Of a stretch of 64,000 nucleotides of DNA, positions 57,370 through 63,785 are shown piece by piece. Source of the stretch: Prosthecobacter sp. (lineage in GTDB: Bacteria; Verrucomicrobiota; Verrucomicrobiia; Verrucomicrobiales; Verrucomicrobiaceae); NCBI GenBank assembly GCA_021733925.1, contig JAIPJY010000013.1:78514-142513 (forward strand), given 5' to 3'. The position numbers were made by a program, and so were the translations under genes. The notes below the pieces were generated by a model. The model was not told the origin of the DNA. It saw only the letters and a list, made by a program, of their open reading frames with translations, and did no database searches. Every line of letters starts with the position of its first letter. The first letter of the stretch is position 1.

Positions 57370-57459
57370 GGAGAGGTGGTCGAGTGGTTTATGGCTCCAG
57401 TCTTGAAAACTGGCGTGGGTTTATCCCCACCGTGGGTTCGAATCCCACCCTCTCCGCCA
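57370..57459 (+). tRNA. tRNA-Ser (anticodon UGA)
   Basis: A 90-nt class II tRNA. The acceptor arms GGAGAGG and CCTCTCC pair, the anticodon stem CCAGT/ACTGG encloses the loop CTTGAAA, giving anticodon TGA (reads UCA). A long variable arm, the T-loop GGTTCGAATCCC and an encoded CCA at 57457-57459 complete it. Its 3' end serves as the integration site of the adjacent element (copies at 63539, 63619 and 63766). Confidence 0.96.
57441..57459 (+). repeat. attL, tRNA-Ser 3' end
   Basis: AATCCCACCCTCTCCGCCA, part of the tRNA T-arm and acceptor, is the left copy of the direct repeat that also occurs at the right end of the element. Confidence 0.75.
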
Positions 57460-57495
57460 CTATCGCTGCAACCCCTTGAAACTGCGGCACTCCTC

Positions 57496-59325
57496 ATGAA
57501 ATCAGGGAAGAACGGAACCAAACTGGGACACAACGACGGGACACCATCCCGGCAAACACCCATTCCGAAACATCCCACAATCTTGAACCGCGATGGCCGT
57601 TACTACTACCGCCGCCGCATCCCTTCCGACCTTGTGCGGCTGGAATGCTACGGGAAGGCCAAGGACATCAAGCGTTCCCTCAAGACCAACGATCTTGCCA
57701 CCGCCAAGCGCCTTGCCATCACGGTAGCCGTTGAAGTGGATGAGGAGTTTGAGGCCAAGCGGCGGGACGTGAAGCAAGGCACCTCGCCACAATCTGCGAC
57801 CAAGGGCGATACTCCGGCGAAACGGAGACTGGCGGGCCTTTCGGAGATGGAGCGGCGGGATTTTATCATTCGCACTTTTATCACGAGCGAGCGGCAGGAA
57901 GGCGGAAGGCGTGCTTTCAGCCGTGATTCCGAAATCCGAGAAAGAAGGCTGGAGACTGCCCGCGAGGATTTGGCGGCCCTTGAAGGCTCTCCCCTTTACC
58001 AAGAAATCGACTGGCTGGCAAAAACACGCGAGGCTTTGGAAGCGGAAGGCGTGACGATTGAAGGGGAGAATGATCCCTTGTTGCACGAGCTTTCGGAAAG
58101 GCTGCGAAGGGCCAGCATCGAAACGGCTTGGCGCACTGAGAGAACGATGAGCGGAAATCAATTCGCGGGCCGTGATCCTCTTTTCAAAGCTCTTCACGCT
58201 GACAGCGCCACACCTTCGCCGGCGAAGGATGGCAAGACCGTTGGCGATTTGTGCGGCGACTACCTAGCGCACAATCAGGACAAGGTGGAAAAAAGGAATC
58301 TGGCACGTTCCACGATTCCCAAGATCAAAATGCGTTGCCGAATACTGATGGACTTTTTCGGCGAGAAAAAGTTGCTGGCTTCGATAACCAAAGAGGACGC
58401 CGCTAACTTGGTGGATTTCCTCCCAACGATTCCGCAAAACGCGGCCAAGCGTTACAAGGGGGTTTCCGTTGTGCTTGCTGCTGAACGGGAGGCAAAATTG
58501 CAAACCAAGCGGCTCATTCATGCGGAAACGGCGGAAGATTATCTGACCGGCCTTTCGGCCTTGCTCACTCATGCAGTGGACGAAGAATGGATGAGTGGAA
58601 ATCCTTTGAAGAGGCGGCTTGTGCGTGAACGACTGGCAAAGCCCAAGAAAAGAAGCCGCCAAACACTCACCCCCGACGAAATGGCGCTTCTGTTTTCGAC
58701 AGCGGAGTTTTCGTCTCTGAGACAGAGCACGGATGGCTTGATGAATGCCCGCTTTTGGCTGCCTTTGCTCTGCCTGTTTCACGGCACACGGGCGAATGAA
58801 ATTGCAGGATTGCGTGCCGCTGATGTTCAGGGAGAAAATGAAATTCCCTTCTTGGACTTGTGCGAGACTGATGAGCACCGGCTGAAAACGGATAGCAGCA
58901 AGCGCAAGGTGCCGCTTCACAAGCAGCTTATCAGCTTGGGATTCTTGGAGTTCGCAGAAACGAGGCGGCGAGATGATCCCCAAGGCTACCTGTTCGCAGG
59001 ACTCAAACGAAACAAGAATGGGAGCCGGGCGGATAGCGTCTGCAAATGGTGGCAGCGACTCGTCACAAGCAACCTTGGCGCGGCTGCGAATGATGGCCCT
59101 AATGGAGCGAGAGGCATTCACAGTTTCCGCCATTCATGGGCAATGGCAGCCCGTGCGGCTGGCTTGGATGAGTCCATCCGCAAACGCCTTGGAGGATGGG
59201 CGCAAACAGATACAGCGGGCGATTACGGATGGTCAAACGAGCTTCCCTTGCTGAAACAGGAAATCGACAAAATCGAGTTTCCAAGTGTCGATTTCTTCGC
59301 AATCAGCCAGAGCACAGATGGTTGA
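57496..59325 (+). CDS. Tyrosine recombinase (site-specific integrase)
   Basis: A 609-residue integrase. The N-terminal 'NRDGRYYYRRRIPSDLVR' block (about 30-50) is a DUF6538-like DNA-binding start, followed by an SAM-like core-binding region near 270-380. The catalytic tyrosine-recombinase residues are visible: R432 in 'FHGTRANEIAGL', H542-x-x-R545 in 'HSFRHSWA', 'GGW', and nucleophile Y577. So it should be active. The start at 57496 is the first ATG after the tRNA (37 bp); the longer frame runs through the tRNA itself. It probably drives integration into tRNA-Ser. Confidence 0.92.
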   Translation: MKSGKNGTKLGHNDGTPSRQTPIPKHPTILNRDGRYYYRRRIPSDLVRLECYGKAKDIKRSLKTNDLATAKRLAITVAVEVDEEFEAKRRDVKQGTSPQSATKGDTPAKRRLAGLSEMERRDFIIRTFITSERQEGGRRAFSRDSEIRERRLETAREDLAALEGSPLYQEIDWLAKTREALEAEGVTIEGENDPLLHELSERLRRASIETAWRTERTMSGNQFAGRDPLFKALHADSATPSPAKDGKTVGDLCGDYLAHNQDKVEKRNLARSTIPKIKMRCRILMDFFGEKKLLASITKEDAANLVDFLPTIPQNAAKRYKGVSVVLAAEREAKLQTKRLIHAETAEDYLTGLSALLTHAVDEEWMSGNPLKRRLVRERLAKPKKRSRQTLTPDEMALLFSTAEFSSLRQSTDGLMNARFWLPLLCLFHGTRANEIAGLRAADVQGENEIPFLDLCETDEHRLKTDSSKRKVPLHKQLISLGFLEFAETRRRDDPQGYLFAGLKRNKNGSRADSVCKWWQRLVTSNLGAAANDGPNGARGIHSFRHSWAMAARAAGLDESIRKRLGGWAQTDTAGDYGWSNELPLLKQEIDKIEFPSVDFFAISQSTDG

Positions 59326-63677: not shown

Positions 63678-63710
63678 CTCGAAGAGCGAAGGACGGGGCA
63701 TTTTTCCAGC

Positions 63711-63785
63711 AGTGAGCAAGGTGAGGCATCCCCTAATGCGAAGCGACAAATGGAAAGCCGCAGGCAATCCCACCCTCTCCGCCAT
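63711..63785 (+). repeat. 75-bp direct repeat, copy 2, ending in tRNA-Ser 3' end
   Basis: Second unit, 74 of 75 bases identical to the first. The tRNA core is at 63766-63784. Between the units (63639-63710) lies a different spacer that contains an ATTTTGCC/GGCAAAAT inverted repeat (63639-63646 and 63657-63664). Tandem site copies suggest more than one integration event. From here to the edge no protein-coding gene is seen on the plus strand. Confidence 0.7.

Follow-up and report, generated by a model that had tools for sequence, protein, structure and literature searches.

The stretch of DNA analysed here, referred to as the window, comprises 64,000 nucleotides of a Prosthecobacter sp. genome (contig JAIPJY010000013.1 of assembly GCA_021733925.1; G000:C123:78514-142513 in our numbering), and its right end coincides with the contig end. 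Toward that end, a tRNA-Ser(UGA) gene is followed by an integrative element encoding seven proteins in the order: tyrosine integrase, XRE-type regulator (minus strand), a 255-amino acid (aa) protein, serine recombinase, TerS1, TerS2 and p561. The inserted DNA is bounded by 17-bp direct repeats of the tRNA 3' end; the chance expectation of an exact 17-mer repeat in 7 kb is about 1e-6. The features of the locus are:

57370..57459, +, tRNA-Ser(UGA), the integration target (ARAGORN; Rfam RF00005, 55.8 bits)
57441..57457, +, attL core AATCCCACCCTCTCCGC within the tRNA 3' end (17-bp direct repeat)
57496..59325, +, tyrosine integrase (Int), 609 aa, DUF6538 and Phage_integrase domains; its open reading frame (ORF) extends upstream across the tRNA core without a stop
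57523..57549, +, putative arm-type integrase sites, left (TGGGACACAAC..GGGACACCA); direct repeat of 63456-63482, 81%
59331..59567, -, XRE/Cro-type regulator, 78 aa (PF01381, 3.1e-12)
59620..60387, +, 255-aa protein whose N-terminus looks, by eye, like a signal peptide
60464..60495, +, 32-bp palindrome GTTCACACATATA-N6-TATATGTGTGAAC, putative serine recombinase site, ending at the recombinase ATG
60496..61146, +, small serine recombinase, 216 aa, of resolvase/invertase size (PF00239, 6.5e-29)
61286..61561, +, TerS1, 91-aa helix-turn-helix (HTH) protein resembling the N-terminal part of phage small terminases (TerS) (phrog_4044, 1.4e-9)
61558..61929, +, TerS2, 123-aa TerS homologue with an AAAWMLERR block (phrog_4102, 3.2e-23)
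61992..63677, +, p561, 561-aa Rep-like protein, element-encoded up to the core end at 63555
63456..63482, +, putative arm-type integrase sites, right; repeat partner of the left arm
63539..63555, +, attR core, the true right end of the element (17-bp repeat and empty-site comparison)
63556..63785, +, host flank outside the element, with two more core copies in an 83-bp repeat

Boundaries and mobility of the element

Two genomes of the same genus, G041 and G042, carry empty sites in which the tRNA core runs straight into window position 63556, and the element genes are absent from both. A joined host-flank query aligns with G041 over 356 bp (91.3% identity, 0 gaps) and with G042 over 135 bp (97.8% identity, 0 gaps), the G042 contig beginning inside the tRNA. 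Because these gap-free empty sites join at 63555/63556, the right end of the element is placed at 63555 and the inserted length at 6,098 bp. The additional cores at 63619 and 63766 belong to the host flank, since the empty sites continue from the tRNA core into 63556. A first-pass annotation, made from the sequence of the window, had correctly reported that the tRNA core is repeated at both ends, but had extended the element to 63785, a boundary that is ruled out by the empty sites. Its alternative, that the same genes would turn out to be fixed content of an empty-site genome, did not occur.

An occupied site is found in genome G050, which has all seven genes at the corresponding tRNA and an attR of its own. 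The DNA is 82% identical in blocks of 2.9 and 3.1 kb, with identities of 86% for the integrase, 92% for the XRE regulator, 93% for the serine recombinase, 88% for TerS1, 90% for TerS2 and 70% for p561, while the 255-aa protein evolves fast (59% over 163 aa). The end repeats, the target-adjacent integrase, the empty sites in G041 and G042 and the occupied site in G050 are the properties of a site-specific integrative element. Judged by this genome comparison, which shows the integration and its site, the element is real and mobile.

The integrase starts at 57496, 36 bases past the tRNA end (37 in the first-pass annotation), and matches PF00589 with 34.1 bits (cut-off 27.1) and DUF6538 at 5e-18. 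It contains HGTRANEI, HSFRH and LGGW...Y, which we take to be the catalytic boxes of a tyrosine integrase. Its gene converges on the XRE gene, which in turn is divergent from the operon that begins at 59620 (+). The layout of the arm sites is the same in G050, and paired repeats of about 10 bp, judged by eye without a statistic, lie near both ends of other elements with an element-specific sequence (TGGGACACAA; TGATACATCA; TTGGTCCTAA; TGTAACGACG). Such end-paired repeats are typical of integrase arm sites and are putatively assigned as such. Pfam and PHROGs scans of the seven proteins gave no capsid or large-terminase match above cut-off, the 255-aa protein matching Chlamy_scaf below threshold (16.3 bits where the cut-off is 25 bits; E 0.011). 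The regulator, the serine recombinase and this lack of structural genes had all been reported correctly by the first-pass annotation. The Rep-like character of p561, the 32-bp palindrome and a group II intron at the contig end are absent from it.

Several further observations were made around the target tRNA. Behind tRNA-Ser(UGA) (window 63556-63782) there are non-coding units, about 80 and 147 bp long and flanked by cores, one of which is also present in the empty site of G042 (L027); these may be remnants or decoy attachment sites. The tail-plus-trailer segment of the host flank (63619-63700) also occurs behind the tRNA-Ser genes GCT, CGA and GGA of the same genome, the trailer behind CCA being common to these three genes. 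In the empty sites of G041 and G042, the sequence is CCGCGCGAAC, and no CCA is encoded behind the tRNA (compare window 57456-57462). The occupied tRNA of the window reads CCGCCA, supplied from the element side, and the right flank of G050 instead reads CCGCCAC. Finally, a group II intron end lies at 63863-63940 on the minus strand, at the contig end (Rfam RF00029, 44.6 bits); this intron may be the reason why the assembly stops to the right of the element.

The p561, TerS and recombinase modules

The last 39 codons of the p561 ORF are host DNA beyond the core. A structure model was made on a 467-aa relative of p561 in genome G053 (pLDDT 79.2, pTM 0.69). Foldseek against the PDB returned four chains of the rolling-circle initiator 4cij at ranks 2, 4, 5 and 6 (E 4e-3 to 1.5e-2, probability 0.96-0.84), and the viral library BFVD returned A0A345MNV4 at rank 2 (E 2.1e-4, probability 1.00). 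In the Rep-Arvir study, this protein is named as an initiator of Inoviridae that contains a Rep_trans domain; the authors of that study used it and likewise obtained matches to the TATA-binding protein (TBP) fold (PMC13107129). The C-terminal part of the relative resembles ArsR-type winged helices.

The conserved residues point in the same direction. In an alignment of 17 p561 proteins (A3; numbering of L031), the columns M1, D22, N132, N179, E240, Y302, K304, R310 and E312 are invariant, and D22, E240, Y302 and E312 fall in four separate predicted strands of the G053 relative. The active site of RepD, as given in the section of PMC4797284 that deals with it, comprises Y191 and K193, with the metal ligands D46, D142 and E214 on separate strands. 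The invariant columns follow this Rep_trans order (D..D/E..YxK..E) in 17/17 rows, and the corresponding active-site candidates in the window are D86, E288, Y340-x-K342 and E350; the invariant R is R348 there. Membership of p561 in PF02486 (Rep_trans) itself is not supported, as there is no match to the Pfam model, and 0/188 genomes of the class match PF02486. Based on predicted fold and invariant residues, p561 is likely a divergent TBP-fold nicking initiator, and this resemblance is the strongest argument for self-replication of the excised element.

The TerS1 and TerS2 genes overlap by ATGA, and their PHROG matches agree with the first-pass annotation, which had described two overlapping HTH genes like small terminases. 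TerS1 is 43% identical to the PaMx28 terS product over 49 aa (5e-4; other Pseudomonas phages 3e-4), with the resemblance confined to the N-terminal, DNA-binding part. Relatives of TerS2 occur in 11 viral contigs at 34-40% identity, directly upstream of an ORF of large terminase (TerL) size (437-491 aa) in 11/11 cases. When nine of these ORFs were tested, eight matched Terminase_6N; the ninth (L083) gave no match, but a Phage_portal gene comes next. The AAAWMLERR block is common to 8/8 aligned sequences, and a TerS2 model (pLDDT 79) finds the Sf6 TerS structure 3hef with a probability of 0.92. That TerS2 would be an ordinary regulator was rejected in view of the relatives directly upstream of TerL-sized ORFs, and the pair fits TerS better than ordinary regulators, contrary to the alternative raised in the first-pass annotation. 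By homology, therefore, the pair is TerS-like: TerS2 is homologous to TerS encoded next to TerL and TerS1 partially so. A candidate packaging-diverting gene, as expected of a satellite, is thus present in the form of a TerS homologue. Within the genus, TerS2 was found at seven places in 6/48 genomes, four of them in p561 elements and three outside such elements. Of these three, L101 adjoins a partial serine recombinase, L102 stands by itself and L103 lies where its contig ends. The order terS1-terS2-p561 is kept in the window, G050 and both elements of genome G343.

The serine recombinase is 75-93% identical in close relatives. Its upstream palindrome was examined for nine recombinases of this type, a second type (for example L057, L058, L063 and L067) being set aside. 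Among these homologues listed, it is present in 7/9 (window, L026, L030, L031, L066, L069 and L070). L101 retains one arm, and a homologue from Sphingopyxis (31% identical) is without it. In L066, both arms have changed together (GGACAC/GTGTCC). The palindrome is single-copy in the genome and 0/100 shuffles of the window contain one. A slightly generalised form was found in 9/386 genomes of the order and 0 times in a reversed control, and the exact pattern occurs 0 times in viral contigs. Four genomes that have no p561 match at the threshold used (G020:C61, G032:C56, G039:C25 and G057:C161) also contain the palindrome with its ATG; this module may be mobile in other settings as well.

A family of p561 elements and the Rep-integrase frame

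A profile search detected p561 in 19/386 genomes of the order and in 4/387 genomes sampled across the phylum, each of the four belonging to that order. A scan of genome contigs gave nine loci, seven of them with titles in Verrucomicrobi- and the others from Sphingopyxis sp. LC81 and Gemmobacter caeni. Among 68 genomes, seven matched p561; since the matches in G042, G021 and G041 cover the host-derived tail only, real homologues are present in 4/68. In the Sphingopyxis element, the order is tRNA-int-cargo-p561-serine recombinase and the att repeat is exact over 17 bp; the Gemmobacter copy is a fragment at a contig end. In total, 25 copies in 23 loci were collected, comprising 22 of the 24 profile-search places (all except G201:C75 and G201:C5) together with L074, L079 and L080, and leaving out a weak G107 match and a second Gemmobacter piece. 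An integrase of this type is present at the same locus for 19-20 copies (L062 has one integrase for two copies) and a serine recombinase for 16; these counts, like those of TerS1, describe the neighbourhood and not independent detection, because the profiles were partly seeded from the counted loci. No integrase accompanies L056 (truncated), L065 or the copies in L071, L074 and L080, which lie at or close to the end of a contig.

A test for repeats of the tRNA tail gave an exact repeat of 15-20 bp in 10/15 loci, with element lengths of 6.0-12.6 kb (the largest resting on a 15-bp repeat) and target genes for tRNA-Ser (UGA, GGA and CGA), Glu, Cys and Arg. No such repeat was found in L058, L059, L065, L066 and L080. 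Two more bounded members are stacked in tRNA-Sec of G343, which brings the bounded copies to 12. The search for the same genes elsewhere that the first-pass annotation had proposed thus returned the syntenic G050 copy at the same tRNA-Ser(UGA) and relatives at other tRNA genes. A relative of the serine recombinase is held by 52 viral contigs, one of which (L113) also holds p561; this is a fetched 11,377-bp part of a 23-kb IMG/VR contig and is identical to part of locus L066 of G067.

Cargo differs between members and frequently resembles phage defence. Scans of 44 proteins, of which 25 of 32 and 25 of 136 matching families were listed, revealed IetA adjoining IetS in L070 (2317-5782), genes for a type II restriction enzyme and a methylase in L031 (9061-11094) and L057 (10967-12615), and AbiJ/Abi_C in L030 (8087-8914). 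The second D12 methylase match of these scans is presumably the protein encoded by the Sphingopyxis element. GYF_2 domains are found in 5/44 scanned proteins among the matches listed. In G067 (L174 2067-13664 with L066), the interval from tRNA-Ser(UGA) to a family member contains phage genes. These encode a head protease (2.5e-67), a tape measure protein (6.9e-63), a DnaB-like helicase (1.9e-72) and an excisionase (3.4e-6); phage-derived DNA has therefore used the tRNA-Ser(UGA) region too.

In the elements of the window and G050 and in both G343 elements (A and B), the p561 ORF crosses the right core; at the other end, the integrase ORF extends back to the left core without a stop, and the two ORFs read the core in one frame (4/4 cases). 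Joining the element ends yields an ORF of 1,143 codons for the window and 1,137 for G050. Since p561 reads the core in the integrase frame, a single ORF for Rep and integrase would be present on the excised circle. The stacked pair of G343 (L061, L104) consists of two different members with three cores in tRNA-Sec(UCA), and there the chromosome holds a 1,140-aa in-frame ORF made up of the p561 of element A and the integrase of element B. The independent in-frame cases number about three, because the window and G050 represent one lineage. Of the remaining eight elements with defined ends, seven have a stop in the integrase frame ahead of the core; in the eighth (G193) the frame is open, but p561 is in pieces.

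These frames suggest a tentative proposal, to which we give somewhat less than an even chance: that the family is a new one of satellites with the att site inside a single rep-int gene. The circle would encode a Rep-integrase of about 1,140 residues, and integration into the tRNA would split this protein into a host-tailed Rep and a separate integrase, so that replication and re-integration would depend on the circular state.

Interpretation and comparison with known systems

The explanation we prefer, and consider slightly better than an even bet, is that the 6.1-kb integrative element is a phage satellite of an undescribed family. In its favour are the two TerS-like genes, the missing structural genes, the defence genes carried by sister elements and a size near that of PICMI115, one of the phage-inducible chromosomal minimalist islands (PICMIs). 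As expected of a satellite, none of its seven proteins matches a capsid, tail or large-terminase family above cut-off. Such an element probably copies itself by its own replication initiator and borrows the packaging machine of a phage. In this scheme, the tyrosine integrase would excise the element through the core, using the paired arm sites near its ends, and the XRE repressor would silence the divergent operon (predicted secreted protein, serine recombinase, TerS1, TerS2 and Rep). Upon relief of repression, p561 would nick the excised circle through Y340 and start rolling-circle replication, the serine recombinase would resolve multimers at its palindrome and the TerS pair would mark the element DNA for the large terminase and capsid of a helper phage. 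Closure of the circle would join p561 and int in one open frame, and it is proposed that integrase supply is therefore tied to the replication operon.

A number of observations weigh against this scheme or parts of it. Excision, replication, resolution and packaging are inferred and not observed. A helper phage was not found: no TerL-like neighbour was seen in the ORF lists of L101-L103, which were not subjected to a dedicated TerL scan. TerS1, at 91 aa, is about one DNA-binding domain, and the fold match of TerS2 to Sf6 TerS, despite its probability of 0.92, has an E value of 0.24. TerS-like genes stand beside 10/25 p561 copies only. Both options of the first-pass annotation, a satellite or an undescribed minimal island, stay plausible: the family is mobile and its hallmark is without a significant library match, but the TerS count weighs against the satellite. 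No defence gene was recognised among the seven proteins of the window's element (PADLOC, run on 3/7, gave only regulator HTH matches). Pattern scans of viral contigs for p561 gave none, and neither did tblastn of the G053 relative against phage and plasmid records. With regard to p561 itself, neither Pfam nor PHROGs nor the PDB sequences gave a significant match, the best weak library match in the family being E 0.025 for one of 17 members. Foldseek against the PDB gave no hit at E <= 0.001 for the G053 relative, rank 1 is an unrelated cyclase (4xrt, probability 0.47), and the 4cij alignments have TM-scores of 0.35 or less with a root-mean-square deviation of 12 A. The mapping onto the RepD active site rests on residue order and strand, not on superposition. 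Furthermore, the 18-codon link from the core to the integrase ATG has 2/3/4 substitutions by codon position, without clear coding constraint.

Three other explanations have to be weighed. The main rival, especially for members without TerS, is a possible but rather unlikely one: an integrative mobilizable element (IME) in which p561 would be a Rep_trans-like (MOBT-type) relaxase that nicks an oriT and depends on a helper conjugation machine, and the TerS-like proteins would be DNA-binding accessories. Rep_trans-like enzymes include the MOBT relaxases of integrative conjugative elements (ICEs) and IMEs, according to PMC11389934 and PMC6499999. The small size and the combination of an integrase with a nicking protein suit IMEs, and 15/25 p561 copies, some of them at contig ends, are without a TerS-like neighbour. 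However, TerS2 resembles phage TerS adjoining TerL, including the AAAWMLERR block, and there is no coupling or mobilization protein among the Pfam matches listed for the scanned proteins. The kept terS1-terS2-p561 order of the window, G050 and both G343 elements argues against an autonomous, plasmid-like integrative replicon that moves rarely or by natural transformation and uses its TerS-like genes as DNA-binding regulators. We regard such a replicon as improbable, even though the Rep-like hallmark gene is commoner than TerS, the HTH-only TerS1 could be a regulator and a serine recombinase with a single-copy site suits plasmid multimer resolution. No plasmid record matches the G053 relative, and 12 copies are bounded by tRNA-tail repeats, though the test could detect tRNA sites only.

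Disfavoured, and in our view very unlikely, is a defective prophage remnant that would have lost its structural genes and retained integrase, repressor and TerS. Such an origin would fit the phage type of the TerS genes, as well as the genes for a head protease, a tape measure protein and a helicase in the stretch that separates tRNA-Ser(UGA) from the family member of G067. Against it stand the compact gene set conserved at 82% DNA identity in G050 and the lack of p561 matches in phage and plasmid records. In addition, divergent members keep int, p561 and mostly the serine recombinase while their cargo differs, and many have exact att repeats.

As a probable phage satellite, the element can be compared with phage-inducible chromosomal islands (PICIs), defined, in the part of PMC6092414 devoted to this, by an end integrase, a divergent repressor, an initiator of their own, sometimes terS, accessory genes including phage resistance, and a specific att site. 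It shares with them the integrase at one end, a divergent regulator near int (59331-59567 on the minus strand versus the operon from 59620), a candidate initiator of its own, TerS-like genes and the specific att site. Unlike PICIs, it has no primase or AlpA/xis recognised among its seven proteins by the Pfam and PHROGs scans, so a pri-rep module was not recognised, and the candidate initiator is of another, Rep_trans-like type. It also differs in having two TerS-like genes and a serine recombinase with its own palindrome. Whereas integrase and repressor have the same direction in Gram-positive PICIs, the integrase gene here converges on the repressor gene. The PICMIs of Vibrionaceae, as outlined in PMC10803314, are similar in size (PICMI115 has 6,110 bp), lack capsid-remodelling genes, combine an integrase with a replication protein and replicate in a manner consistent with a rolling circle. 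In contrast to the element, they have, by that outline, alpA and prim, no terS, and insert next to fis; its tRNA target, its TerS-like genes and the lack of an alpA or primase match set it apart.

A parallel to the initiator is offered by the archaeal pleolipovirus SNJ2 and Rep-Arvir, where a distant TBP-fold, Rep_trans-like initiator is likewise recognised only by structure. Excision of SNJ2 is described in the same source as rebuilding an operon of integrase and initiator, plus a small attP ORF (PMC13107129), whereas the join of the present element would fuse Rep and Int in one frame. The MOBT/Rep_trans relaxases of ICEs and IMEs belong to the same suspected superfamily and also reside in small integrative elements, but p561 is not placed in PF02486 by the hidden Markov model, TerS-like genes are present and no conjugation genes were recognised. 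Tycheposons and VEIMEs of marine bacteria, small integrated elements of other hosts that are proposed as satellites in the portions of PMC10803314 and PMC11389934 concerned with them, are alike by description only.

The literature searched, mainly open-access papers with preprints outside its scope, held no description of the p561 element family and no DUF6538 papers, and verrucomicrobial phage satellites or tRNA integrative elements appeared there only in single mentions or under unrelated topics; the family looks undescribed. If the satellite explanation is correct, it would add a very small, often defence-carrying satellite-like family in the verrucomicrobial phylum, defined by a replication initiator that sequence libraries fail to recognise. 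The p561 profile provides a handle for finding such elements elsewhere and already reaches Sphingopyxis and Gemmobacter. Should the proposed Rep-integrase hold as well, the frame made by the circle would be a simple switch tying replication and re-integration to excision, comparable to SNJ2.

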